A stretch of 64,000 bases of DNA, taken from contig NZ_DF968182.1 in the NCBI RefSeq assembly GCF_001192835.1, positions 1,924,345 to 1,988,344 on the forward strand. The letters are read 5' to 3'. Below the pieces are notes generated by a model. That model had not been told where the DNA came from. It saw only the letters and a program-made list of their open reading frames with translations, and made no database searches. Below, in pieces: positions 14,537 to 46,354 of this stretch. The stretch is from Lentimicrobium saccharophilum. Lineage in GTDB: Bacteria; Bacteroidota; Bacteroidia; Bacteroidales; Lentimicrobiaceae. A program made the translations under genes and the position numbers. Numbering within the stretch: position 1 is the first letter of the stretch; each line of letters opens with the position of its first letter.

Positions 14537-14560
14537 GGTTAGGATAAGATTGAGGTTGTG

Positions 14561-14735
14561 CTTCGGTTGGTCTCGGCTGGTCTCGGCTGGTCTCGGCTGG
14601 TCTCGGCTGGTCTCGGCTGGTCTCGGCTGGTCCCGGCTGGTCTCGGCTGGTCTCGGCTACTCTCGACCACCGCCGCTCGACCACCACCGCTCGACCACCG
14701 TCGCTCAGCAACCAGGGTTGAGGTTTCTCCAGATG
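14561..14735. repeat. tandem repeat block 1: 10-bp units then 14-bp units
   Basis: About ten copies of a 10-bp unit TCTCGGCTGG (14561-14660, one C/T variant) run into about three copies of a 14-bp unit CTCGACCACCACCG. It lies between the response-regulator stop and the hairpin before the protease gene. Open frames through it are low-complexity artefacts (10 bp is not a multiple of three). Confidence 0.9.
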
Positions 14736-14756
14736 GTATCTTCTAAAAATGTGTCC

Positions 14757-14911
14757 GGTTGGTTTGGTTCGGCTGGTCCCGGCTGGTCCCGGCTGGTCCC
14801 GGCTGGTCTCGGCTGGTCTCGGCTACGCTCGACCACCACCGCTCGACCACCACCGCCCGGCCACCGCTGCCCGGCCACCGTTGCCCGGCCACCGTTGCCC
14901 GCAGGCGCGGA
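14757..14911. repeat. tandem repeat block 2: same 10-bp and 14-bp unit types
   Basis: A second copy of the same architecture: about seven 10-bp units (TCCCGGCTGG/TCTCGGCTGG), then five 14-bp units grading from CTCGACCACCACCG to CCCGGCCACCGTTG. The two blocks are joined by about 30 bp of unrelated sequence. The order of unit types is the same in both blocks, which points to block duplication followed by drift. Confidence 0.88.
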
Positions 14912-18517: not shown

Positions 18518-18958
18518 TTACTCCAGCATAAAAATCAGCACCGCCACCGGCAGCTTTCCTTCAATGTTATAAATAACGGATCCGTAATTGCTGGAACCAT
18601 GACGCACCAGGTTGCCGTCGAAATTGTACAGAATGGTGCCGTAATCGCTGCTTCCCTGACGGATATATCCACCGCCCCAGTTGTACAACACCTTGCCGTA
18701 GGTGCTCCTGCCCTGCCGGAAATTACGGCCATCCCAGTTAAAAAGCACTTCTCCATAGGTACTTGATCCCTGGCGGATTTCAGTCCCATCGTAGTTTATA
18801 ATAACTTGTCCGTAAGCGCTGCTTCCTTTCCGGAGGTAACGTCCGTCCCAATTCCAGAGCACCTCCCCGTAACTACTGCTGCCCTTCCTCACCAGCGTTT
18901 GTGCATGTGCCGTTCCTGTCATCAGGAGCGTGATCAGCACAATCAGGATTTGTTTCAT
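18518..18958 (-). CDS. exported small protein made of 20-residue repeats
   Basis: A 146-residue protein with a signal peptide (MKQILIVLITLLMTGTAHAQ) followed by six near-perfect 20-residue repeats with the pattern R.GSS.YG.VLYNWDGR.I, one per repeat with small changes. The spacing of Gly, Tyr and Trp suggests short beta-strands arranged around an axis. It resembles, by pattern only, the small beta-flower or propeller-like repeat proteins known from Bacteroidota; I cannot name the family with certainty. It stands alone. The 240 bp between it and the protease gene contain no gene I can support. Confidence 0.75.
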   Translation of the reverse strand: MKQILIVLITLLMTGTAHAQTLVRKGSSSYGEVLWNWDGRYLRKGSSAYGQVIINYDGTEIRQGSSTYGEVLFNWDGRNFRQGRSTYGKVLYNWGGGYIRQGSSDYGTILYNFDGNLVRHGSSNYGSVIYNIEGKLPVAVLIFMLE

Positions 18959-21460: not shown

Positions 21461-21578
21461 TCAGCGGTTGAGGCCAAGCGCTGGACGGCAGTTTTGAAAG
21501 TATCTCTCCCGGGCCTGCAGAATTATTAATAAATGTACAAGCTTTCCCCTTACAACCATGCGCCCGTCCGCTTATTGT
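21461..21578 (-). repeat. decayed attC-like site C1 (type 1)
   Basis: Clearly related to the type 1 sites further right: GGTTGAGGCCAAGCGCTGG, then GGCAGTTTTGAAAGTATCTC, AATAAATGTACAAGC and ACCATGCGCCCG in order. The AAC core is AGC and the GTT end is unrecognisable, so it is probably inactive. It marks the left edge of the cassette array. Confidence 0.7.
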
Positions 21579-27672: not shown

Positions 27673-27804
27673 GGGTAACGGTTGAGGCTAAGCGCTGGCG
27701 GGCTCTTTTGAAAATATATCATTCCGGTCAGCACAATTTTCAATAAATGTACAATCTTTCTCCTTAAAACCATGCGCCCGTTAGCGTTTAGCCTTTGTTG
27801 TGCG
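27673..27804 (-). repeat. attC-like site C5 (type 1)
   Basis: Left box GGGTAAC, right box GTTGTGCG. Type 1 arms GGCTAAGCGCTGGCGGGC / GCCCGTTAGCGTTTAGCC. Nearly identical to C10, with which it shares a duplicated cassette. Confidence 0.88.
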
Positions 27805-28522
27805 TAGTATTTCTTATTCAATCAGGATTTTTGACGTGTAATCTGTTACATAACTTCTTAAAAATGAGTCAATAAATTTTTTCGAATTTCCGCCTTTTCT
27901 TAAGTCTTTCTTGATTTTCTTGTATTCTCTTGTCTTTTTGAATGCCTGAAACTGCCTTCCTTTGAAATTCTCATACTCTATGTAATTGAAGTGTTTTTCC
28001 GTTTCCAAGTTTCCTTCGTTAATCTCTAGTAAGATATAGTTTTCGTATGTGGAACCATAACCCATATGAACATAATTCATAAGGTTTCCTAAAGGTAAAA
28101 CAAGCAATCCCGTAAACCAATCAACCTCCATTTCTTTCGGTTCGGGAAAAACTTCAATTATAACACTTTCCCAACTTATGTCATGATTGTTCCTATCTGC
28201 AGTGTCAATACAATGTATTTGAATGTCTTTGACTATGAGTTTGTTGTCTTTGATCTCAAAAGTAGCAACATATCCACGCCATAAGTCAGTAGATTCAATA
28301 ATTACACCTCCATAAACATGTCTAGGCCTTTTGTCAGGATTTTTCTCAAAATAGATTTCTAATGGATTACTAAATAGATCATACTCAATTCCTTTGTATA
28401 GGAGTTTATCAGCTCTTTGTGATGTTGCAAAAGCCTCTACTCCAAACAACAAGAGCAATATTTTTATAAAGATTGATTTCATAGATTTTCGAAAAAATGG
28501 TCTGATAATATTACGCATAACG
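27676..28522. repeat. duplicated cassette, copy 1 of 847 bp
   Basis: This stretch is repeated at 34651-35497 without a difference that I can see. Identity begins at TAACG in site C5 and stops at AACG in site C6, which is exactly at the core boxes where integron recombination happens. Confidence 0.92.
27814..28482 (-). CDS. exported hypothetical protein, cassette copy 1
   Basis: I place the start at 28482 because it yields a signal peptide (MKSIFIKILLLLFGVEAFA); the frame is open further upstream. The 222-residue product has no domain I recognise. It is beta-rich with a basic C-terminus (REYKKIKKDLRKGGNSKKFIDSFLRSYVTDYTSKILIE). VFPEPKEMEVDWFTGLLVLPLGNLMNYVHMG could be a surface-facing segment. 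The protein is identical in the second copy at 34789-35457. It is the only gene in its cassette. Confidence 0.72.
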   Translation of the reverse strand: MKSIFIKILLLLFGVEAFATSQRADKLLYKGIEYDLFSNPLEIYFEKNPDKRPRHVYGGVIIESTDLWRGYVATFEIKDNKLIVKDIQIHCIDTADRNNHDISWESVIIEVFPEPKEMEVDWFTGLLVLPLGNLMNYVHMGYGSTYENYILLEINEGNLETEKHFNYIEYENFKGRQFQAFKKTREYKKIKKDLRKGGNSKKFIDSFLRSYVTDYTSKILIE

Positions 28523-28646
28523 GTTGGTACATGTTGCGGAGCGGATTTCGGAGCGCGTTCCTGTCCGATAGGACGGAACGGCGATGCGAGAATCCGCAGT
28601 TGGCATACCACCGAACACCGCCCTGCAATATGTACTTTGTTATGGG
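28515..28646 (-). repeat. attC-like site C6
   Basis: Left box GCATAAC, right box GTTATGGG. Arms TTGGTACATGTTGCGGAGCGG.. / ..CGCCCTGCAATATGTAC, with a GC-rich loop. The cassette to its right starts GTTATGGGC and ends GCCCATAAC. Confidence 0.78.
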
Positions 28647-28682
28647 CTGATTTTTGTTTAATTCATTAATTTTTAAATAATT

Positions 28683-28904
28683 ATGTGTCAAAAAATTAAA
28701 GTTTTTCCAGATGAAGTAAACACCGTTTATAAAGATGGTTTTGTTTACGTGTCAATGAGCGAATATTTTAAAGTAGTACAAGACAACGTTTTATTACGTG
28801 AAACCCTCAAAGATGTCTGTCAGAGAGGAGTATCTGTCGAAGCAAGATTGATTTGTGCGCTTACAGAACCTTTTTCTGAAGGTCAGCAATCGATAACTCC
28901 ATAG
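28683..28904 (+). CDS. small hypothetical protein, plus strand
   Basis: A 73-residue frame (MCQKIKVFPDEVNTVYKDGFVYVSMSEYFKVVQDNVLLRETLKDVCQ ...) that reads like a real soluble protein and runs against the general gene direction of the array. Its last 44 bp overlap the end of the opposing gene. The start lies 37 bp after site C6. No known family; a role as regulator or small adaptor cannot be told. Confidence 0.5.
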   Translation: MCQKIKVFPDEVNTVYKDGFVYVSMSEYFKVVQDNVLLRETLKDVCQRGVSVEARLICALTEPFSEGQQSITP

Positions 28905-29118
28905 AGTTTATTTTACTCTCTATTCTTGACAATTTTGATTTTATTTCGTCGATTTTGTCGAATAAGTTTCGAACGTTTCCATAAGTCGGCTCCATTAAGT
29001 CAAACGTGTCATAGGTTCTCTTATTTATTTTATGCGTGTCTGCAAGAATAAGGTTAAAACCTTCAATGATTTTGTCATAGAGTTCTTGATTGGTTTTGTC
29101 AGTTGTTTTTTCAGTCAT
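28861..29118 (-). CDS. small coiled-coil hypothetical protein
   Basis: An 85-residue helical protein (TEKTTDKTNQELYDKIIEGFNLILADTHKI ... NLFDKIDEIKSKLSRIESKINSMELSIADLQKKVL). The last 35 residues have heptads of a coiled coil. No signal peptide. The start lies shortly after site C7 in gene sense, as expected for a cassette gene. It converges on, and overlaps by 44 bp, the plus-strand frame at 28683. Confidence 0.6.
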   Translation of the reverse strand: MTEKTTDKTNQELYDKIIEGFNLILADTHKINKRTYDTFDLMEPTYGNVRNLFDKIDEIKSKLSRIESKINSMELSIADLQKKVL

Positions 29119-29177
29119 GTTTGAAACTTATTAAATTATTAACTAAGTAATTATCTGTTGTGTGGCTTTTAAATTTG

Positions 29178-29312
29178 CCCATAACGTTTTGCAGCTACCC
29201 GAAGGTGGCGATTTCGAAGCACTTCACAGTCAACCAAGCACGAACTTTGATAGAAGCACAAAGCTTGATTTAACCACTGAACCGCCACTTTTGGGTAGGT
29301 GCTGTTATGGGC
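29178..29312 (-). repeat. attC-like site C7 (type 2)
   Basis: Left box CCCATAAC, right box GTTATGGGC. Arms CAGCTACCCGAAGGTGGCG / CGCCACTTTTGGGTAGGTGCTG, shared with C9. The loop contains AGCACTT and GAAGCAC repeats. Confidence 0.85.
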
Positions 29313-29319
29313 TGCCTTT

Positions 29320-29838
29320 CTATCGTCCATAGATTTCATATAAAGTGTTTAATCCTAGTCCTTCGTTGTCGTGTTGCGTCCAAAGGTCTGTGATTGTATA
29401 TATGATTTCAATTTTTCCATTTTCTGGTCCAAATTGATAGTCTGTCAAAAAATAAACTTTTTTAATTGGTGAGTTATCTAATGCAATTTTTAATAATTTG
29501 TCAATGTCAGACTTATATTGTTTTAAAAACTTGAACCTAAATTGTTGATTTGCTCCACGATTATATGTTGGGTCGTTATCGTCATACTCTGGGATAATAA
29601 TGTCTCCAGGTTCAAAGTCCCAGTCAACTATAGCACCAGCATAAAATCCACCTTCTTTGTCGTCCTTTAAGTCAGGATTTCCAATGTGAACAATGACTCC
29701 ATTTTGTTCTAAAAGCAGGTCATAAAATAGGCTGCGATGACTAATAAGTTTGTTTTCTTCAATAATAGAAATATCAAAGTCCGTTTGGCTTAGTCCAATT
29801 TTTGTCGAGTTTATAGATACTATTTCAATTGTCGGCAC
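29320..29838 (-). CDS. hypothetical protein (172 aa)
   Basis: A soluble protein without a signal peptide. It begins PTIEIVSINSTKIGLSQTDFDISIIEENKLISHRSLFYDLLLEQ and has an acidic middle section (DWDFEPGDIIIPEYDDNDP). No family recognised. The size, acidity and single-gene cassette would fit an immunity-type or binding protein, but there is no direct evidence. The stop lies 8 bp from the right box of C7. Confidence 0.6.
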   Translation of the reverse strand: MPTIEIVSINSTKIGLSQTDFDISIIEENKLISHRSLFYDLLLEQNGVIVHIGNPDLKDDKEGGFYAGAIVDWDFEPGDIIIPEYDDNDPTYNRGANQQFRFKFLKQYKSDIDKLLKIALDNSPIKKVYFLTDYQFGPENGKIEIIYTITDLWTQHDNEGLGLNTLYEIYGR

Positions 29839-29880
29839 TGTTTTCTTTTATTTATTAATTTTGTCGGTCTGTTAAGGTTG

Positions 29881-30014
29881 CCCATAACGTTTGTGGCTAA
29901 GCGCTGGCGGGCAGTTTTGAAAATATCTCTTTCCGGCCAGCACAATTTTCAATAAATGTACAATCTTTCTTCATACAACCATACGCCCGCTCGCGTTTTA
30001 GCCTTTGTTAGCAC
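29881..30014 (-). repeat. attC-like site C8 (type 1)
   Basis: Left box CCCATAAC, right box GTTAGCAC. Type 1 arms GGCTAAGCGCTGGCGGGCAG / CGCCCGCTCGCGTTTTAGCC; from the CGCTGG on it is identical to C13. Confidence 0.88.
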
Positions 30015-30525
30015 CTGTGCTTTATCTTTTCATTCTATTTTTAATTTCCTCGAATTCATCAAAAAAAATTTCAATGAGAAAGTATTCACCACTCCCCTTT
30101 GTTTTTATAATCAATCCGCTTGTCTTTCCGTTACCATATTGTATAGATTTGCTTTCTGCTAATTCATAATCTGTATCCAAGATATTAATTGTCTTTCCTT
30201 TGATGAAATTTACTTTTTCTGTACTCAAATTAATTCTTGAATCTTCAAATGTTAACTTCGAAATAACTTTTCCAAATTTCTTAGCTGCTATAGTTGGAGA
30301 AATAATTCCTATAAATACAAATAATAACAGAAAGATGGGAAGGGAAGCCCAAAAGAACAATGAACCTCTCATACTAATGTATGACAGACACAAATATGCA
30401 ATAAAGAAGAGAGGAAAACCAATGAATATTTTGAGATTTTCTTTTCTCCTTTTTTTTAATTCATCTAATCCGGCATTATTTAAATAGTAAATCATTGGGT
30501 TTATTTATTAGCATTGGTGCTAACG
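29902..30525. repeat. second duplicated cassette, copy 1
   Basis: The same sequence recurs at 37916-38539 (offset 8014). The only difference I noticed inside is one T/C change next to the AAC core. Left of position 29902 the arms differ in about seven bases, right of 30525 the sequences are unrelated. Confidence 0.9.
30022..30495 (-). CDS. hypothetical membrane protein with two helices, copy 1
   Basis: A 157-residue protein with a basic N-terminus (DELKKRRKENLK) followed by two membrane helices (IFIGFPLFFIAYLCLSYI and LFFWASLPIFLLLFVFIGII) and a cytoplasmic or periplasmic beta-rich domain (LTFEDSRINLSTEKVNFIKGKTINILDTDYELAESKSI ...). The layout is like small PH-domain-type membrane proteins. 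Identical protein at 38036-38509. No function assigned. Confidence 0.65.
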   Translation of the reverse strand: MIYYLNNAGLDELKKRRKENLKIFIGFPLFFIAYLCLSYISMRGSLFFWASLPIFLLLFVFIGIISPTIAAKKFGKVISKLTFEDSRINLSTEKVNFIKGKTINILDTDYELAESKSIQYGNGKTSGLIIKTKGSGEYFLIEIFFDEFEEIKNRMKR

Positions 30526-30651
30526 TTTTGCAGCTACCCGAAGGGCGGGCGATTCACCACAAATGTTGATTAAAAGTACTAAAGTTTCGTTCACCACAAA
30601 TCTGTCTTTAATGCACAAAAACCCGCCTTTTGGGTAGGTGCTGTTATATGC
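30517..30651 (-). repeat. attC-like site C9 (type 2)
   Basis: Left box GTGCTAAC, right box GTTATATGC. Arms CAGCTACCCGAAGGGCGGGC / CCCGCCTTTTGGGTAGGTGCTG. The 4.0-kb cassette to its right ends GCATATAAC, the exact complement of GTTATATGC. Confidence 0.87.
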
Positions 30652-30687
30652 TGTGCATTTTGTCAGTGTTGATTTAGGTATTTTCAC

Positions 30688-31365
30688 TTAGAATACAATT
30701 TTATATCCATGTCCACGGCTATTGATGATTTTTATATTGGGGTCGCTGGATAGTTTTTTTCTCAGTTTGGTGATAAACACATCCAGACTTCGGCCATTAA
30801 AAAAAGTATCGCTTCCCCATATTTTCTTTAGTATTAATGACCTGTCCACAATTTCGTTCTTATTATCGATAAGCATCAGCAACAGCTTCGCTTCCATAAA
30901 TGTGAGTGCGTGAACCTCTGTTTCGTATTGTATTGTTTGTCTACTGAAATCAAAAATATAGTTTCCTAATTTAAATACTTTGTCTTCAAATTGTTGGCTT
31001 TGTCTTCCTAGCAATGATTCTACTCTAACAATTAATTCCTCTATGCTAAAGGGTTTTTTTATATAATCGTTGGCTCCCGTTTTAAAACCATACACCACGT
31101 CCGAGGTTTGCGACTTAGATGTAAGCAATATGATTGGAATGGATTCGTTTTCTTGCCTTATTTCCTGAATAAGGGTGAAGCCGTCTTTTTCAGGCATCAT
31201 CACATCCAACAACAATACATCAAAGCCGTTTTTCTGATAAAGTTCCAGTGCTTCCCTTCCGTTATTGGCAACAGTAACAAGGAAATTACGGGTTTCCAAA
31301 CTTTCCTTAACTATAGTGGCCAATGCAATTTCATCTTCTGCCAGAAGTACATTTATCTTATCCAT
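30688..31365 (-). CDS. OmpR-family response regulator
   Basis: A 225-residue regulator with receiver domain (INVLLAEDEIALATIVK; phospho-acceptor D54 in VLLLDVMMPEKDG; conserved T in ILLTSK and K in YIKKPFS) and a winged-helix DNA-binding domain (LTFMEAKLLLMLIDN ... GRSLDVFITKLRKKLSSDPNIKIINSRGHGYKI). It overlaps the kinase gene by 13 bp. Together with the two plus-strand genes it fills the C9-C10 cassette. Its likely binding site is the set of TAAC repeats at 32733-32766 between kinase and target genes. Confidence 0.93.
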   Translation of the reverse strand: MDKINVLLAEDEIALATIVKESLETRNFLVTVANNGREALELYQKNGFDVLLLDVMMPEKDGFTLIQEIRQENESIPIILLTSKSQTSDVVYGFKTGANDYIKKPFSIEELIVRVESLLGRQSQQFEDKVFKLGNYIFDFSRQTIQYETEVHALTFMEAKLLLMLIDNKNEIVDRSLILKKIWGSDTFFNGRSLDVFITKLRKKLSSDPNIKIINSRGHGYKIVF

Positions 31366-32681
31366 AGTCTGATCAAAAATTTGTTTGGAGTTATTAATTC
31401 AATTGTTCCTTTGTGTTTTTCAATAATGTTTTTGGTGTAATATAAGCCAATGCCAAAACCTTTTATACTATGCATATTCTTTGTTCTTGCTCTGTAAAAT
31501 TTATCAAAAACGAAAGGTTCGTCTTGTTTTGAAATTCCTTCTCCATTATCGTGTACCGAAATCTGAACTTGGTCGGCACTATCCTTTGTGATGCTTACCG
31601 TTATTTCGATACCACCATATTTTATTGCATTGTCAATAAGGTTCGACACTGCATTTTCAAAATGAAATCCGTCCAGTTCGCACTCCAGAGAATCAAAAGT
31701 ACTCTCGAAGATTATTTTCTTTCCGGTGTTTAGTTGATGCCTTTGCACACACTCTTTAATCAACTTCACCAAATCATTCTTTTGGCAATCCAGTTTCAAT
31801 TCTGAACTTTCAAGGAGGGATGTTTCCATTACTTTTTCTACCAACAGATTAAGCTTTTTCAGTTGTTGTTCGGAAATATCGAGGTAGCGTTTTGTTTTAT
31901 CTGAGATTTCTTCGTTGCTGAAATTTTTAATGGCTTCTAATGCACTAGTCACTGTGGCTATAGGTGTTTTAAATTCGTGTGTAACATTACTTATAAAGTC
32001 GTGCTTAATTTCAGATAGATCTTTCTGCTTTTTAATTATTTGCAATAAATAATACAAGGCAAAAATAACTATGCAGCACAGAATAAACGATAATATTATC
32101 CCGGTTAAACCCTTCAATAATGAAGGTAAAACTGGATCGGCATAATTCATGACAATATCTGTACTCGATCCAAGCGGAGTTAATGATGAATTGGCCTGCA
32201 GCATATTAAAATTGTCCGACAATTGACCTAATGAGTCAGTTACTAGGCTATTATCAATTGCTTTTAGTCTATAATCCAAGGTATAGTTGTATAGCTTAAG
32301 TTCTTGCTTTAGTAGGCTGTCAAACTCGGTTAAATTCACCTTGACATCAATTACACTATAACTTATTGAGGGTGAATTGTCATTCAATGCACTTAGATGT
32401 TGATCCATCTTTAATTCCTCAAGGACCTTATTTACAATTCTTTGTATAGAGTCACTCTTCGAATCACCGATTTCTTTGGTTATTTCCTGATCGGATAGGG
32501 TTTTGCCATTGGAATGCGATTGGATATACTCCATGGTTACATCATCCAGAATGCGTTGTATGTCGTTAATTACCAGACTGCGGTTGCTGGCATACTGTAT
32601 GTAGTTCCAATACGCCTGAATACCAATAGTTAGCAGCACTATTGTAGCAATAAAGAGGACAGTTTTTTGATGTCTTTTCAT
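31353..32681 (-). CDS. membrane sensor histidine kinase
   Basis: A 442-residue kinase. Two membrane helices (about residues 7-27 and 190-213) enclose a periplasmic sensor region of about 160 residues with no recognised fold, rich in Ser, Asp and Asn. The dimerisation/phospho-acceptor domain has ISNVTHEFKTPIATV with H235, and the ATPase domain has NAVSNLIDNAIKYGG (N box), DNGEGISKQ (G1) and GFGIGLYYTKNIIEKHKG (G2). It is first in the minus-strand kinase-regulator pair and diverges from the target genes across a 133-bp promoter region. Confidence 0.92.
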   Translation of the reverse strand: MKRHQKTVLFIATIVLLTIGIQAYWNYIQYASNRSLVINDIQRILDDVTMEYIQSHSNGKTLSDQEITKEIGDSKSDSIQRIVNKVLEELKMDQHLSALNDNSPSISYSVIDVKVNLTEFDSLLKQELKLYNYTLDYRLKAIDNSLVTDSLGQLSDNFNMLQANSSLTPLGSSTDIVMNYADPVLPSLLKGLTGIILSFILCCIVIFALYYLLQIIKKQKDLSEIKHDFISNVTHEFKTPIATVTSALEAIKNFSNEEISDKTKRYLDISEQQLKKLNLLVEKVMETSLLESSELKLDCQKNDLVKLIKECVQRHQLNTGKKIIFESTFDSLECELDGFHFENAVSNLIDNAIKYGGIEITVSITKDSADQVQISVHDNGEGISKQDEPFVFDKFYRARTKNMHSIKGFGIGLYYTKNIIEKHKGTIELITPNKFLIRLWIR

Positions 32682-32732
32682 AGTTTAAAACTACTAAAAT
32701 AAATTGAAAAGGCAGTCAGGAGTTCTCAACTT

Positions 32733-32766
32733 TAACGAACGATAACTTTCGGTAACATTCTGTTAA
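32733..32766. promoter_or_regulatory. candidate response-regulator operator, 10-bp spaced TAAC repeats
   Basis: TAAC occurs at 32733, 32743 and 32753 with TTAA at 32763, a 10-bp period that puts each half-site on the same face of the helix. OmpR-family regulators bind such direct repeats. It lies in the divergent region between the kinase gene and the exported-protein genes, just upstream of a TAnnTTTG-like element (CACCTTTG, 32779-32786). Confidence 0.6.
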
Positions 32767-32814
32767 GATAAGTCACCACACCTTTGTACCGTAAATATTT
32801 AAACAATTAAAACG

Positions 32815-33240
32815 ATGAAAAATCAAATCAAAAATTCAGGGATGGCTATGGCCATTATTTTATTCACTTGCGCTTTTGCCAGTCTTTCCTTTGCGCAAAA
32901 CAAGCAAGTTTGCGAAGACATTGTAGCACAAATCTACAACGGTATTAATCAAAGAAAGGCAAATCATCTTACTCAGTATCTATCTAAAGATTTTAGTATG
33001 GCTGGACAAAAGGGTGAGATAGCACTAGAGATTTTTCCGGTGTATATCACCAGCTTAAAGGACAATGTAGCAGACATTAAAAAATTCTCCGAAAAACAAA
33101 CCGATGTTTTAACCTTGGTTTACGAAGCAAAATTTGCAGAGATGGGATTGAAGAAGTCAACTTTTGTTTTTGATAAAAACAACAAGCTGATAAAGATGGA
33201 TCTTTTACCTACTAAGGTACAACATCAAAAAGGACAGTAA
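32815..33240 (+). CDS. exported SnoaL/NTF2-like small protein
   Basis: A 141-residue protein with a signal peptide (about residues 1-27, ending ASLSFAQ). The mature part CEDIVAQIYNGINQRKANHLTQYLSKDFSMAGQKGEIALEIFPVYI ... KQTDVLTLVYEAKFAEMGLKKSTFVFDKNNKLIKMDLLP resembles the cone-shaped NTF2-like fold (helix, N..N/D.L..YLS.DF, beta-sheet). The N-terminal domain of the next gene is a close paralogue (shared TDVLTLVYEA.F.EMG.K.STF.F), so the two arose by duplication. It is probably the first gene controlled by the adjacent two-component system. Confidence 0.75.
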   Translation: MKNQIKNSGMAMAIILFTCAFASLSFAQNKQVCEDIVAQIYNGINQRKANHLTQYLSKDFSMAGQKGEIALEIFPVYITSLKDNVADIKKFSEKQTDVLTLVYEAKFAEMGLKKSTFVFDKNNKLIKMDLLPTKVQHQKGQ

Positions 33241-33271
33241 TTTATTCTATACAAACATCAAAAAAATTGAT

Positions 33272-34525
33272 ATGAAACGAATTGTAACCATAGTAATTTT
33301 CTTAGTATTAAACAATATTGCCTTTTCGCAGGAATCAGCAGAATGTGAAAAAATTGTTTTTCAAACCTACGAAGCAATCAATCGAAAAAGTGCTGAGCCA
33401 TTAATGAACCACTTATCGCCCGACTTTACTATTGCAGGATATACCGGTGAAGTAGCGCTGTTAATTCTGCCACAGCTATTTGACCAGCTGAATATGAAAG
33501 TAACGAATATCAAAAAAGTTAGTGAAGTTAAAACAGATGTACTGACGTTGGTTTATGAAGCAGAATTTGGAGAAATGGGGGTAAAACAATCCACCTTTAT
33601 TTTCAATGAAAAGAATCAACTTAAAGAATTGGGGCTTCTGCCAATGGAGGTAATGGCAACAAAAGCAGATGCCCAAGTTACCCAAAGCGAAAAAGCTTTT
33701 TTTTCTATACCGTTTAAAAGAATTGGTAACCTGATTTCGGTACAGACTAAATTAAATGGGGTTTCCAGAACATTTCTCATTGATAACGGTGCTCCAGTTT
33801 TTGTTCTAAATAGTGCACATCTTGGAAAGGATAGTACAGATAATAAATTGACTTTGAGTAATACGAAAGGTGCAGGAGGCACAATTTCCAATGTAGGTGT
33901 AGCGAAAATAGAAAGCTTTGACTTTGGCGGAATATCAATGGATACCCAAAATGTGATTTCTATGGATTTATCCCATTTGGAGAAGGCTACTAAAACTACT
34001 TTTTATGGATTGCTCGGTTATGATGTTTATAAGGAATATGATTTGTTTTTTGATTACAAGAAAAATACAATTACATTCATTAAACCAGAGGCTACAAAAG
34101 ACTTTCTAGAAAGCAACTTCAAATCTAAAAGACAAGTTGAAGTGCCTATTGAAATGGAGGGGCACATTGCAGTAGTTAAGGGTGTAATTAACGGTAAAGA
34201 ATATATGTTTGGAATTGATTGCGGAGCAGAATCTAGCTTGTTTGATATTAAACTGAAAGACGAATTAAAACCAAATTTCAGAAAGTTAAAGAAAGACAAG
34301 ATGGGTGGAGCTGACCTGAATGTAGTGGATATATATACTGGAAAATTAGATTCGATGGTTATTGGAGGTGTTGAATTCAAAAAAACCCAAACTGCATTCA
34401 GTGATATTTCTCATTTGAATGAGGGGTATAATTTGAAATTGGATGGTTTAATTGGTTATGATATTCTATCCGAGCAGCCCACGTTGATTAGTTATGTGAA
34501 CAAAAAAATAGTATTCTTGAAGTAA
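33272..34525 (+). CDS. exported NTF2-like domain fused to two retropepsin-like domains
   Basis: A 417-residue protein with a signal peptide (MKRIVTIVIFLVLNNIAFSQ). Residues about 25-130 are a paralogue of the preceding small protein. Two aspartic-protease-like units follow: FLIDNGAPVFVLNSAHLG with LLGYDVYKEYDLFFDYKKNTITFI, and FGIDCGAESSLFDIKL with LIGYDILSEQPTLISYVNKKIVFL. The active D-[ST]-G triad is D-N-G in the first and D-C-G in the second, so proteolysis is doubtful. The protein is 31 bp downstream of the small gene, same operon. A role in sensing or binding in the periplasm is inference. Confidence 0.8.
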   Translation: MKRIVTIVIFLVLNNIAFSQESAECEKIVFQTYEAINRKSAEPLMNHLSPDFTIAGYTGEVALLILPQLFDQLNMKVTNIKKVSEVKTDVLTLVYEAEFGEMGVKQSTFIFNEKNQLKELGLLPMEVMATKADAQVTQSEKAFFSIPFKRIGNLISVQTKLNGVSRTFLIDNGAPVFVLNSAHLGKDSTDNKLTLSNTKGAGGTISNVGVAKIESFDFGGISMDTQNVISMDLSHLEKATKTTFYGLLGYDVYKEYDLFFDYKKNTITFIKPEATKDFLESNFKSKRQVEVPIEMEGHIAVVKGVINGKEYMFGIDCGAESSLFDIKLKDELKPNFRKLKKDKMGGADLNVVDIYTGKLDSMVIGGVEFKKTQTAFSDISHLNEGYNLKLDGLIGYDILSEQPTLISYVNKKIVFLK

Positions 34526-34645
34526 CGTATTCTTTTCTTCTACAAAAGTAAATGACATGATGACAAATAACATTAGGTCATTTTATTTTTCCTTCAATTA
34601 TTTTTAAATATAATGTTTGCTTTGTTTGTTGATTTCTTTTGCATA

Positions 34646-34779
34646 GCATATAACGGTTGAGGCTAAGCGCTGGCGGGCTCTTTTGAAAATATATCATTCC
34701 GGTCAGCACAATTTTCAATAAATGTACAATCTTTCTCCTTAAAACCATGCGCCCGTTAGCGTTTAGCCTTTGTTGTGCG
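34646..34779 (-). repeat. attC-like site C10 (type 1)
   Basis: Left box GCATATAAC, right box GTTGTGCG. From AACG onward identical to C5. The 125 bp after the plus-strand gene stop (34526-34645) is AT-rich with no gene. Confidence 0.88.
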
Positions 34780-35497
34780 TAGTATTTCTTATTCAATCAG
34801 GATTTTTGACGTGTAATCTGTTACATAACTTCTTAAAAATGAGTCAATAAATTTTTTCGAATTTCCGCCTTTTCTTAAGTCTTTCTTGATTTTCTTGTAT
34901 TCTCTTGTCTTTTTGAATGCCTGAAACTGCCTTCCTTTGAAATTCTCATACTCTATGTAATTGAAGTGTTTTTCCGTTTCCAAGTTTCCTTCGTTAATCT
35001 CTAGTAAGATATAGTTTTCGTATGTGGAACCATAACCCATATGAACATAATTCATAAGGTTTCCTAAAGGTAAAACAAGCAATCCCGTAAACCAATCAAC
35101 CTCCATTTCTTTCGGTTCGGGAAAAACTTCAATTATAACACTTTCCCAACTTATGTCATGATTGTTCCTATCTGCAGTGTCAATACAATGTATTTGAATG
35201 TCTTTGACTATGAGTTTGTTGTCTTTGATCTCAAAAGTAGCAACATATCCACGCCATAAGTCAGTAGATTCAATAATTACACCTCCATAAACATGTCTAG
35301 GCCTTTTGTCAGGATTTTTCTCAAAATAGATTTCTAATGGATTACTAAATAGATCATACTCAATTCCTTTGTATAGGAGTTTATCAGCTCTTTGTGATGT
35401 TGCAAAAGCCTCTACTCCAAACAACAAGAGCAATATTTTTATAAAGATTGATTTCATAGATTTTCGAAAAAATGGTCTGATAATATTACGCATAACG
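34651..35497. repeat. duplicated cassette, copy 2 of 847 bp
   Basis: Copy of 27676-28522 with offset 6975. Here it sits between sites C10 and C11; flanking sequences on both sides are unrelated to those of copy 1. Confidence 0.92.
34789..35457 (-). CDS. exported hypothetical protein, cassette copy 2
   Basis: Identical in sequence to the 222-residue protein encoded at 27814-28482, with the same signal peptide. The absence of visible differences suggests recent duplication or ongoing exchange between the copies. Confidence 0.72.
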   Translation of the reverse strand: MKSIFIKILLLLFGVEAFATSQRADKLLYKGIEYDLFSNPLEIYFEKNPDKRPRHVYGGVIIESTDLWRGYVATFEIKDNKLIVKDIQIHCIDTADRNNHDISWESVIIEVFPEPKEMEVDWFTGLLVLPLGNLMNYVHMGYGSTYENYILLEINEGNLETEKHFNYIEYENFKGRQFQAFKKTREYKKIKKDLRKGGNSKKFIDSFLRSYVTDYTSKILIE

Positions 35498-35624
35498 TTT
35501 TGGCGGTATGTTTTTGTTGCCGATTTCGAAGTACTTTCCTGTCAAGTTATACGAAAGTTTATTAGATGCAGAAAAGCTGAACTCAGCACTATCTCGGCAA
35601 TAAAATATACCGCCTGTTATGCAC
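35489..35624 (-). repeat. attC-like site C11 (type 3)
   Basis: Left box CGCATAAC, right box GTTATGCAC. Arms GGCGGTATGTTTTTGTTGCCGA / TCGGCAATAAAATATACCGCC. Loop contains GTACTTTCCTGTCAAGTTA, shared with C23 and C24. Confidence 0.87.
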
Positions 35625-37893: not shown

Positions 37894-38028
37894 GTTGCTA
37901 ACGGCCAAGGCTAAACGCTGGCGGGCAGTTTTGAAAATATCTCTTTCCGGCCAGCACAATTTTCAATAAATGTACAATCTTTCTTCATACAACCATACGC
38001 CCGCTCGCGTTTTAGCCTTTGTTAGCAC
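37894..38028 (-). repeat. attC-like site C13 (type 1)
   Basis: Left box GTTGCTAAC, right box GTTAGCAC. Arms CCAAGGCTAAACGCTGGCGGG / CGCCCGCTCGCGTTTTAGCC; identical to C8 from CGCTGG on, different before it. Confidence 0.88.
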
Positions 38029-38539
38029 CTGTGCTTTATCTTTTCATTCTATTTTTAATTTCCTCGAATTCATCAAAAAAAATTTCAATGAGAAAGTATT
38101 CACCACTCCCCTTTGTTTTTATAATCAATCCGCTTGTCTTTCCGTTACCATATTGTATAGATTTGCTTTCTGCTAATTCATAATCTGTATCCAAGATATT
38201 AATTGTCTTTCCTTTGATGAAATTTACTTTTTCTGTACTCAAATTAATTCTTGAATCTTCAAATGTTAACTTCGAAATAACTTTTCCAAATTTCTTAGCT
38301 GCTATAGTTGGAGAAATAATTCCTATAAATACAAATAATAACAGAAAGATGGGAAGGGAAGCCCAAAAGAACAATGAACCTCTCATACTAATGTATGACA
38401 GACACAAATATGCAATAAAGAAGAGAGGAAAACCAATGAATATTTTGAGATTTTCTTTTCTCCTTTTTTTTAATTCATCTAATCCGGCATTATTTAAATA
38501 GTAAATCATTGGGTTTATTTATTAGCATTGGTGCCAACG
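37916..38539. repeat. second duplicated cassette, copy 2
   Basis: Copy of 29902-30525 with offset 8014. It ends in CCAACG where copy 1 has CTAACG, one base from the AAC core, and then continues into a type 1 instead of a type 2 site. Confidence 0.9.
38036..38509 (-). CDS. hypothetical membrane protein with two helices, copy 2
   Basis: Identical 157-residue protein to that at 30022-30495. It keeps the same spacing to both flanking attC-like sites. Confidence 0.65.
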   Translation of the reverse strand: MIYYLNNAGLDELKKRRKENLKIFIGFPLFFIAYLCLSYISMRGSLFFWASLPIFLLLFVFIGIISPTIAAKKFGKVISKLTFEDSRINLSTEKVNFIKGKTINILDTDYELAESKSIQYGNGKTSGLIIKTKGSGEYFLIEIFFDEFEEIKNRMKR

Positions 38540-41166: not shown

Positions 41167-42878
41167 CAGACTGTCTAAAAACCCCGTATCATCTCCCGAA
41201 AAAAACAGCATAAATTTTCAATAATGAATGTCGTAATAATCCAATAATAAGTTGTACATTTAATGCGTAAACAACACAACTTAAATGAAGTACCAACAAG
41301 GACAGGACAGGGAACAGCTGCATATCTTTCCAATGAGTATGGAAGCTGCCATCAGTTCCGACAATGAGGTGCGGATGATCGAACTGTTTGTGGAAAGCCT
41401 TGATATTAAGTCACTTGGATTCAAGGTTGATCACATGGAGAACGGTCGCCCGGCCTATCACCCCAAGGACTTGCTCAAGCTCTTTCTGTATGGCTATATG
41501 AACAGGATCCGCTCGTCACGTGAGCTGGAGAAGGAAACCAGACGCAACATCGAAGTGATGTGGCTGCTCAAAGGCCTGAACCCCGACCACAACACCATCA
41601 GTAACTTCCGCAGAGATAACCCCAACGCCATTAAAAAAGTGTTCAGAGCAACAGTTGCCCTGGCAAAGCACTTCAACCTGATTGGCGGCAAACTGCTGGC
41701 CGGCGACAGCACCAAACTCAGGGCACAGAACTCCAAGAAAAACAATTTCAACGAAAAGAAAATCCAGCGCCATTTAGATTATATCGAGAATAAACTGGGA
41801 GAATATGAGAAGCAATTAGCTGAAAATGATGGCGATAAAGAAAAAGAGCAAGAACTAAAGCAACAAATTGAAACACAGCAGCAACGCAAGCAATCCTACG
41901 AAAACATCCAGAAGCAGCTGGTAGAAAGCGGTGAAGTTCAGGTTTCAACCTCAGACCCTGAGAGCCGTCAGATGATTACCCGCAACAACATCACCGAAGT
42001 AGCCTACAATGTGCAAACCACAGTGGACGATCAGCACAACATTCCGATTGATTACAAAGTAACCAATGAGAATGATTCAAAAGCCATGGGCGATATGTTG
42101 CGCCGGGCAAAAGTCATTGTTGGAAACAATACATTTACAGCCCTTTACGACAAAGGTTACCACACAGGCAGTGAATTTGAGAAAGCAGCAGAGCTAGGCG
42201 TTGAGGTGTTGGTAGCTATTCCTGCTGTGGCCGCCAATGCACCCGATGAAGCCTACAATGTGGAGCATTTTCGTTATGAAGCAGCAGGAGACTATTATGT
42301 TTGTCCACAGGGATCGGAATTACACACCAATGGCACCTGGTATCAAAGCAAAGCAGCACCTTTTAAACAATACAAAACACCTGACTGTAAAACATGTCCG
42401 GTGAGGGAGTTATGCACTACATCCATCAAGAACGGAAAGATCGTCCAGCGCAATAAATATGTTGAATACATAGAAGCCAACAAGATTCGCATCCAACATA
42501 ACCAGAACTATTACCGCCGACGACAGGCCATTGTGGAACATCCCTATGGCACAATAAAAAGGCAATGGGGCTTCAATTACATCATGACCAAAAAAAGCAT
42601 CAAACGTGCCTCGGCCGATGTAGGATTGGTATTCACGGCCTACAATTTGCGCAGAATTTTGAATATCATTGGAAAAGAAGCACTTAGGTGTTTTCTTGTT
42701 GATTTTTTGATGTATATTGTCGTCTTTTGGGCTTTATTAGAGCATTTTTGGCGCATGCAAAAAAATCAGCTTCAAGTTTCGCTTGAAAAATCAAGTTGTT
42801 TAGAACCTAAGTATTTGTTAATTTAGCAGTGTAAAATTGAAGTAAAATGAGAATTAAAGGAGGTTTTTAGACGGACTG
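41167..42878 (+). mobile_element. IS1182-family insertion sequence (1712 bp)
   Basis: Ends are 17-bp inverted repeats with two mismatches (CAGACTGTCTAAAAACC and, on the other strand, CAGTCCGTCTAAAAACC), flanked by a 4-bp direct repeat ACGT at 41163-41166 and 42879-42882. It carries one intact transposase gene. It lies in the opposite direction to the array and within two bases of the AAC core of site C18. Confidence 0.88.
41285..42826 (+). CDS. IS1182-family DDE transposase
   Basis: A 513-residue transposase. The N-terminal region YQQGQDREQLHIFPMSMEAAI ... NEVRMIELFVESLDIKSLGF ... YHPKDLLKLFLYGYMNRIRSSRELEKE and the section LLAGDSTKLRAQNSKKNNFNEKKIQRHLDYIENKLGEYEKQL are hallmarks of IS1182 family enzymes. 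DDE acids are expected in GDSTK, ALYDKGYHTGSEF and the C-terminal HPYGTIKRQWGFNYIMTK (E not shown in the last, probably VEHPYG). The last 45 residues are hydrophobic and atypical. The gene seems intact, so the element may still be mobile. Confidence 0.92.
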   Translation: MKYQQGQDREQLHIFPMSMEAAISSDNEVRMIELFVESLDIKSLGFKVDHMENGRPAYHPKDLLKLFLYGYMNRIRSSRELEKETRRNIEVMWLLKGLNPDHNTISNFRRDNPNAIKKVFRATVALAKHFNLIGGKLLAGDSTKLRAQNSKKNNFNEKKIQRHLDYIENKLGEYEKQLAENDGDKEKEQELKQQIETQQQRKQSYENIQKQLVESGEVQVSTSDPESRQMITRNNITEVAYNVQTTVDDQHNIPIDYKVTNENDSKAMGDMLRRAKVIVGNNTFTALYDKGYHTGSEFEKAAELGVEVLVAIPAVAANAPDEAYNVEHFRYEAAGDYYVCPQGSELHTNGTWYQSKAAPFKQYKTPDCKTCPVRELCTTSIKNGKIVQRNKYVEYIEANKIRIQHNQNYYRRRQAIVEHPYGTIKRQWGFNYIMTKKSIKRASADVGLVFTAYNLRRILNIIGKEALRCFLVDFLMYIVVFWALLEHFWRMQKNQLQVSLEKSSCLEPKYLLI

Positions 42879-45447: not shown

Positions 45448-45583
45448 GGGCACAACGTTTTGCGTGTATGAGAAGTAGCGGATTAAAAAGCACTTCACTT
45501 TCAGTTTGGTACTGACTTTTATTAAAAGCACTGACCTTTGATTTAGCACTGAACCCGCTATTTCTTATACACGCTGTTGTGCG
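45448..45583 (-). repeat. attC-like site C21 (type 4)
   Basis: Left box GGGCACAAC, right box GTTGTGCG. Arms GCGTGTATGAGAAGTAGCGG / CCGCTATTTCTTATACACGC with one bulge; spacers between box and arm are GTTTT and CT, the asymmetric unpaired region expected of attC. Confidence 0.88.
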
Positions 45584-45593
45584 TTCGTACTTT

Positions 45594-46172
45594 CTATTTT
45601 TCAATTTTTTTCCCACTTATTATTCTTGAGATAATACCTTTCTGATTAGTGAATTCTGCCATTAAGACACCTCCTAAATGTATCCCAATAAATGCTACTA
45701 AATAGTAGATGCCCAAAACGTGAATTTCTTCCATTGGTTTTTTTAGTTCTTTTGGTCCTAATTCGATGATAAGTCCTGTTACCAAAGAAATTAAAACACA
45801 GATATAAAATATTAGATAAGTCCATTTTTGAAATTTCTCCTTTACAGTTAGGTTTTTAGTAAAAGGATTTTGAAACTTCATTTGCCCTAATGTCGGAAGT
45901 ATGATGCGAATACTAAATAATCCAACCAATACATATCCGATATAAATATGCCAATCCCACATTGGTTGTCGAATTTTTTTGGCTAAGACAATTAGTTGCT
46001 CTTGAGATAATGTCTGGTCGGTACCGCTCAAATAATCTTGAATAATGGCTGCAACATTAAACTTATTCAACCACGTCAATCTCAAAAAGATAGTCAATAG
46101 TAATAAAGTAAATGATATTGCTATCGTCCAATGAATTATTCGATATACTTTAGAATAATTTGTCTGTTCCAT
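45594..46172 (-). CDS. prokaryotic cytochrome b561-like membrane protein
   Basis: The start at 46172 (MEQTNYSKVYRIIHWTIAISF...) gives a 192-residue protein with four helices and four histidines at the positions of heme ligands: H14 (RIIHW), H75 (WDWHIYIGY), H151 (EEIHVLG) and H165 (GIHLGG). This is the two-heme cytochrome b561/Ni-hydrogenase b-subunit type. It would pass electrons between quinols and periplasmic partners such as superoxide or hydrogenase-type enzymes; no partner gene is next to it. Single-gene cassette C21-C22. Confidence 0.82.
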   Translation of the reverse strand: MEQTNYSKVYRIIHWTIAISFTLLLLTIFLRLTWLNKFNVAAIIQDYLSGTDQTLSQEQLIVLAKKIRQPMWDWHIYIGYVLVGLFSIRIILPTLGQMKFQNPFTKNLTVKEKFQKWTYLIFYICVLISLVTGLIIELGPKELKKPMEEIHVLGIYYLVAFIGIHLGGVLMAEFTNQKGIISRIISGKKIEK

Positions 46173-46220
46173 ATTGTCTTGTATTAAGTTATTAAATTCT
46201 CTTGTCTGTTTTTGTATGAC

Positions 46221-46354
46221 GCACAACGGTTCGGGTATTGCCGCAGTGGGGGATTTTCAGCACCAAAGTTCAATAGATGTACTACCGTTTGTTTAAGCAC
46301 AAAAGTTTCATAGAAGCACTTTACCCCCCATTGCGGCAATACCTTGTTAGCGGC
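46221..46354 (-). repeat. attC-like site C22 (type 4)
   Basis: Left box GCACAAC, right box GTTAGCGGC. Arms GGGTATTGCCGCAGTGGGG / CCCCATTGCGGCAATACC. Loop contains repeated AGCAC and TTCATAGAAG/TTCAATAGATG stretches. Confidence 0.86.

Follow-up and report, generated by a model that had tools for sequence, protein, structure and literature searches.

The window analysed here, a stretch of 64,000 nucleotides from the Bacteroidota species Lentimicrobium saccharophilum (assembly GCF_001192835.1, contig NZ_DF968182.1, positions 1,924,345 to 1,988,344), holds part of a 52-kb gene cassette array in which about 31 distinct attC sites, all on the minus strand, extend from position 21483 to 73562; coordinates beyond 64000 are extrapolated window coordinates, and the in-window part of the array spans 21483-64000. 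The gene for a tyrosine recombinase of 603 residues (C1:1999818-2001629, corresponding to L009:4819-6630 on the minus strand and to extrapolated 75474-77285) shares the strand of the array and lies upstream of it, 11.5 kb past the window end; three small genes separate it from the first attC. The features that define integrons are found together at this locus: cassettes separated by attC sites in a single orientation, cassette ends at G^TTR (in two duplicated cassettes and in one shared between genomes), an adjoining tyrosine recombinase gene and, by sequence, a putative attI site beside that gene. The adjoining recombinase also distinguishes the main array from a cluster of attC sites lacking an integrase (CALIN).

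The attC inventory

Sites were sought by two routes. The window was joined with neighbouring loci into a 130-kb stretch, in which a scan for YAAC...GTTR with complementary arms returned some 20 sites, 98-134 nt long, from window position 29 kb to 73.6 kb; a 40-kb control flank yielded zero sites. A covariance model (R1), for which 51 sites from the window and from other genomes were used, then gave 33 rows in the window and flanking loci, some of them double-counted through locus overlap, which leaves the approximately 31 distinct sites. Across the whole genome R1 matched 47 times, with smaller clusters at C1:2.80-2.82 Mb, 1.50-1.52 Mb and 1.43-1.44 Mb and at C2:0.318 Mb. At L171:15660-16530 (C1:2.8157 Mb), at least three tandem copies of a 287-bp cassette, whose attC is short (about 101 nt), are 94-97% identical. 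Tandem repeats outside the array, at 14554-14889 and 18582-18888, have periods of 10 and 57 bp. Rfam gave no match within the window, and insertion linked to a tRNA gene was rejected as an explanation, no tRNA having been found.

Duplicated and shared cassettes

The first-pass annotation of the window had reported the same cassette at two places, and comparison of the two blocks, 27676-28522 and 34651-35497 on the minus strand, bears this out: they agree over 847 bp with 0 differences, the identical run is maximal at exactly these coordinates, and a whole-genome search found exactly two copies. Each block carries the same gene, as had been noted, for a 234-residue exported protein (27814-28518 and 34789-35493), together with its attC (27673-27803, 89.1 bits with R1; 34648-34778, 89 bits); the protein has no match in Pfam or NCBIfam, and a search of a plasmid collection found no relative of the cassette. 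On the minus strand, which encodes the cassette genes, the sequence of the block is CG|TTATGCG...CAACCG|TTA, and both edges fall in the R' core (CG^TTR) of attC-like sites, with no identity past the core. The flanks are unrelated from the first base outside, on both sides of both copies. On the upstream side the neighbouring attC sites (28515-28645, 63.6 bits; 35490-35622, 105.4 bits) read GTTGGTACATGTTGC and TTTTGGCGGTATGTT, and have only the AACG core and scattered bases in common, so that homologous recombination would lack a substrate there.

A second cassette is duplicated in the same array. Its copies, at 29895-30525 and 37909-38539, are 99.7% identical and carry a gene for a 157-residue membrane protein (30022-30495 and 38036-38509); with the adjoining spacers they occupy 29890-30525 and 37904-38539 on the minus strand, and their attC sites lie at 29882-30013 (97.2 bits) and 37896-38027 (91.1 bits). 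Between the copies 619 bp (29902-30520) are free of differences, which are confined to the whole 5-nt spacer by the crossover point (29890-29894), one L-box base (29901) and one base at the far end (30521).

These observations bear on two explanations that need no integrase. In an assembly artefact a single cassette would have been placed twice, which the identity of the 847-bp copies could suggest. However, each copy has unique and different flanks on both sides, and two independent duplicated cassettes, one of them with differences, lie on a 3.1-Mb contig of an assembly of only 2 contigs (4.5 Mb), so that we consider an artefact extremely improbable. Homologous recombination, unequal crossing-over, gene conversion or an insertion sequence (IS) could also have made the copies, and recombination could on one side have been initiated between similar attC sites of the array (84-90% over about 125 bp); on the other side, however, the neighbouring sites are alike only in the AACG core and scattered bases, the edges carry no IS, and the flanks differ on both sides. 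Copying by these routes is therefore very improbable, and the first-pass annotation had already set unequal crossing-over and an IS aside. The edges at G^TTR, the upstream neighbours that share only the core, and an array end with an integron-type recombinase and an attI-like site together make integrase-mediated copying, as proposed in that annotation, the best reading. Its further claim of recent activity is reasonable given the absence of differences over 847 bp, although gene conversion between the copies could also have kept them identical. By itself, the 847-bp pair is ordinary integron behaviour.

Cassettes also appear to move between genomes. The cassette at 45454-46231 (minus strand), with a gene for a 210-residue membrane protein (45594-46226), has a counterpart with 95.5% identity in the array of a Sphingobacteriales metagenome-assembled genome (MAG; JACXVB010000004.1), and the similarity starts and stops exactly at CG^TT; this constitutes comparative evidence for the probable transfer of a single cassette between orders. 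In an interval of 4.1 kb between attC sites (30649-34648), the array strand encodes a two-component system and the opposite strand two exported proteins; a transposase of the IS1182 family lies within the array (41285-42826), likewise on the opposite strand. A 12.7-kb gap between attC sites, from 56329 past the window end to about 68883 (L008:9169-17943), contains TerD-like, von Willebrand factor A (vWA)-type and kinase/phosphatase-like genes on the array strand, and is perhaps one very long cassette or an insertion.

A hairpin with a strand-specific wobble

The attC sites of the array are about 130 nt long and have R''/L''/L'/R' arms. Like canonical attC sites, they consist of inverted arms that fold, with an unpaired central spacer (spacers of 1-3 nt vs 3-6 nt). 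Of the 15 pairs in the consensus hairpin, 14 have two-sided changes, part of this covariation being expected by construction since the scan that supplied sites demanded complementary arms. The sites lack the extrahelical bases on the R''-L'' arm that characterize canonical attC: the L stem is free of insertions and deletions in 89 of 113 sites, and the extra bases that do occur are equally frequent on the two arms (13 and 13), while a similar method applied to canonical attC beside canonical IntI (L128 and L140) gave 2-3 extra bases on one arm, a control that comprises two clear sites. A strict canonical R''/R' pattern (RYYYAAC/GTTRRRY), which served only as a control for canonical attC, found no Bacteroidota sites in the three loci tried.

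The stems are nevertheless asymmetric between strands. The stem mismatches number 314; top-strand A.C, which corresponds to a T.G wobble in the bottom strand, accounts for 203 of them, and the opposite kind for 41. One A.C mismatch is almost invariant (49/51 sites; columns 23/115 of alignment A2) and turns into a G.T wobble on the bottom strand. In 43 of 51 sites this strand has the more stable fold, by a mean of -2.4 kcal/mol (p = 7e-8, uncorrected for relatedness). In canonical attC the strand bias comes from extrahelical bases (PMC2727003); the Bacteroidota sites show a parallel bias with a G.T wobble, and we infer that the conserved wobble probably stands in for the extrahelical bases as the strand signal, and that the bottom strand is the likely substrate.

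The recombinase and the attI-like site

Of all genes in the genome, the 603-residue frame scores highest as an integron integrase. Among NCBIfam families, TIGR02249 matches it best (integron integrase, 215 bits, with a curated cut-off of 265), and its best solved relative is VchIntIA (PDB 2A3V, 8e-42). Foldseek likewise places 2A3V first for an AlphaFold model of the protein (pLDDT 78.5, pTM 0.38, the latter leaving the arrangement of domains unsure), while a fold comparison by Z-score puts 2A3V below the archaeal Xer 4A8E; the fold search is hardly informative on the N-terminal part. The expected catalytic residues R438, K463, R531, H554 and Y563 are invariant in 18 homologues. The additional domain of canonical IntI, termed I2, is absent: residues 178-248 of VchIntIA have no counterpart and are replaced by a link of 29 residues, and TIGR02249 profile positions 182-241 are unmatched. 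Correspondingly, the distance from the KGxxxR motif, which contains the catalytic lysine, to LRH is 67 residues in this protein and 61-71, nearly always 66-67, in the Bacteroidota homologues in which it could be measured, as against 108-109 in six canonical IntI. Canonical IntI group in a single clade (100/100) of a maximum-likelihood tree, with the Bacteroidota proteins outside it in several clades; the tree is unrooted and so accommodates loss and primary absence of I2 alike.

Residues 1-300 appear to contain a three-fold repeated module of about 50 residues, with one DUF5710-like match below cut-off. The copy number of this module varies among homologues, and L058 has none. An essential role for the N-terminal extension was rejected, since the L058 frame (283 residues), which lacks it, adjoins attC.

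The absence of both I2 and the extrahelical bases fits the proposal that the two co-evolve (PMC4792948). The compact fold, which is as close to XerA and archaeal Xer as to VchIntIA, could alternatively point to a Xer-like exchange of both strands at the R'-spacer-L' core of double-stranded sites, in place of a folded single strand. In the second duplicate the difference falls precisely on the 5-nt spacer that separates R' from L', a pattern that could arise if a second strand exchange were resolved in a mixed way. A double-stranded core site, however, needs neither a conserved hairpin of about 130 nt with R'' and L'' arms nor a strand-asymmetric wobble, and we judge this alternative rather unlikely.

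Across loci of this kind, a core near ATATAAACKAG^TTR is common some 20 to 200 bp after the recombinase stop codon. A related pattern occurs in 22 of 38 co-oriented loci and in 3 of 36 upstream controls; since it was written after the sequences had been viewed, and a few of the 22 may be due to chance, the contrast with the controls and not the absolute count is the evidence. In L. saccharophilum the attI-like core GATATTCACTAG^TTGGCGG directly follows the recombinase stop codon (extrapolated position about 75453). Contigs L047 and L068 end exactly at the ...AGTT of their attI-like core and L089 ends at ...TTGTTA, which is the expected outcome of assembly if different first cassettes, all starting with TTR, coexist in the population. 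In another species of the genus (G017, L066) a cassette start lies directly at the attI position, and its sequence matches extrapolated window positions 70820-71050 (88% over 231 bp), mid-array in the L. saccharophilum genome.

Linkage across the Bacteroidota

The association of this recombinase type with attC is not confined to one genome. Loci were fetched by recombinase similarity alone, and in the 80 named loci R1 found 94 attC sites, of which 89 lie downstream of the recombinase and co-oriented with it, 4 upstream and divergent, and 1 upstream and co-oriented; some loci had themselves supplied sites to R1, so that the contrast between the two sides, not the count, carries the evidence. 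The hosts include Flavobacterium, Arundinibacter, Algoriphagus, Winogradskyella, Seonamhaeicola, Rufibacter, Zunongwangia, Algibacter, Lutibacter, Cyclobacterium and Aquiflexum, as well as MAGs named Chitinophaga and Sphingobacteriales. Among 60 relatives of L. saccharophilum, 46 have attC sites of the Bacteroidota type. When recombinase presence was set at E below 1e-33, a threshold above the XerC/D background, and the window genome was left out, attC sites were found in 27 of 28 relatives with such a recombinase and in 18 of 31 without (p = 5e-4). Canonical IntI exceeded its cut-off in only 1 of the 60, a genome that carries it (G024:C50:52308-53159, 367 bits) besides the type without I2.

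Co-orientation was rejected as a defining feature of the system, as 11 rows of the tree are divergent, most of them in one separate clade without I2. Further related loci have the array divergent from the recombinase, which again lacks the additional domain where this could be measured. The related I2-less clade of about 300-340 residues (L151, L152, L157, L164, L165 and L166) stands divergent from its attC arrays, the usual orientation in integrons.

These data also address the explanation that the arrays are CALIN, with attC moved in trans by a canonical IntI, or by one since lost, and the neighbouring recombinase unrelated. The attC sites kept by 18 of 31 relatives without the recombinase would accord with this, as would a description of the insertion as essential to integron function (PMC8138268) and a report that IntI activity requires the additional domain (Messier and Roy 2001, cited in PMC2426708). 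The linkage is, however, tight and co-oriented over many Bacteroidota genera, an attI-like motif follows the recombinase and contigs end at it, 59 of 60 relatives lack a canonical IntI over the cut-off, and the attC sites lack the very extrahelical bases that I2 recognises, making this explanation improbable.

Proposed mechanism and its implications

We consider it very likely, on sequence grounds, that a large sedentary chromosomal integron occupies the locus; it would be of a Bacteroidota type, comprising an I2-less recombinase of the integron/XerA kind, an attI-like site and cassettes with attC on the same strand. The recombinase is transcribed towards the attI-like site, beyond which the cassettes follow. 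It would recognise the folded bottom strand of attC, cut at CG^TTR and join the cassette to another attC or to attI. As only one strand of the excised cassette would be used, the cassette could persist on a replicated chromatid as the circle is inserted again at another place; exact duplicates such as the 847-bp pair would result. Bottom-strand folding, cleavage, exchange and replication that leaves a copy behind are established for canonical integrons, and by analogy the same steps are most likely here; the 603-residue protein probably performs the reaction, in a system that is presumably active. Because both duplicates lie mid-array, the data suggest that they arose by attC x attC insertion.

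Several observations weigh against this interpretation. Both duplicate pairs lie away from attI; the TIGR02249 score falls below its curated cut-off; the sites behind R1 were chosen for complementary arms; and 18 of 31 relatives have attC sites but no recombinase of this type, as CALIN or in fragmented genomes. Additionally, the spacers of the second pair (29890-29894 and 37904-37908) are wholly unlike despite 619 identical bp, a result that plain G^TT exchange does not predict and for which a second strand exchange inside the spacer is one possibility.

It is somewhat more probable than its contrary that the system extends throughout the phylum, with integrases that never had or have lost I2 and with attC strand choice governed by the conserved G.T wobble, as an independent solution to, or the ancestral state of, single-strand cassette recombination. 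A natural system without I2 and extrahelical bases makes the proposed co-evolution of the two (PMC4792948) directly testable, and may reveal an ancestral or parallel route of integron evolution. Finally, the findings point to a large cassette pool moving between Bacteroidota orders.

Comparison with known systems

The array resembles the superintegron of Vibrio cholerae, a sedentary chromosomal system with a canonical IntI, in its mostly single-gene cassettes and exact cassette duplicates, in attC sites with R''/L''/L'/R' arms and an unpaired central spacer, in the G^TTR crossover and in an attI, here putative, beside the integrase. It differs from canonical IntI integrons in a recombinase without I2 and with a short distance between the lysine motif and LRH, in attC sites that have a conserved G.T wobble but no consistent extrahelical bases, and in cassettes usually co-oriented with the integrase. 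XerA-type archaeal and Xer recombinases (5HXY, 4A8E) share the compact two-domain fold without I2; they are not known to be associated with cassette arrays. The integrons of Treponema also have an integrase transcribed towards attI in the cassette direction, yet are set apart by their description as IntI integrons and belong to another phylum (PMC3607928).

Within the Bacteroidetes, complete integrons are nearly absent from earlier accounts, the one complete integron identified being that of Salinibacter ruber (PMC9024848), which was found with a canonical IntI profile, unlike the type without I2 described here. Integron surveys define the integrase by its additional domain or by IntI profiles, and arrays with I2-less recombinases would therefore probably be scored as CALIN or missed. 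We found no description of I2-less integrases linked to attC arrays in open-licence papers, and the type appears to be undescribed in the open literature searched. A related precedent is a survey of tyrosine recombinases, in which the integron insertion was not fully conserved in an 'integron-like' subgroup and yet was called essential for integron function (PMC8138268); here, in contrast, members without the insertion are tied to attC arrays and attI-like sites.

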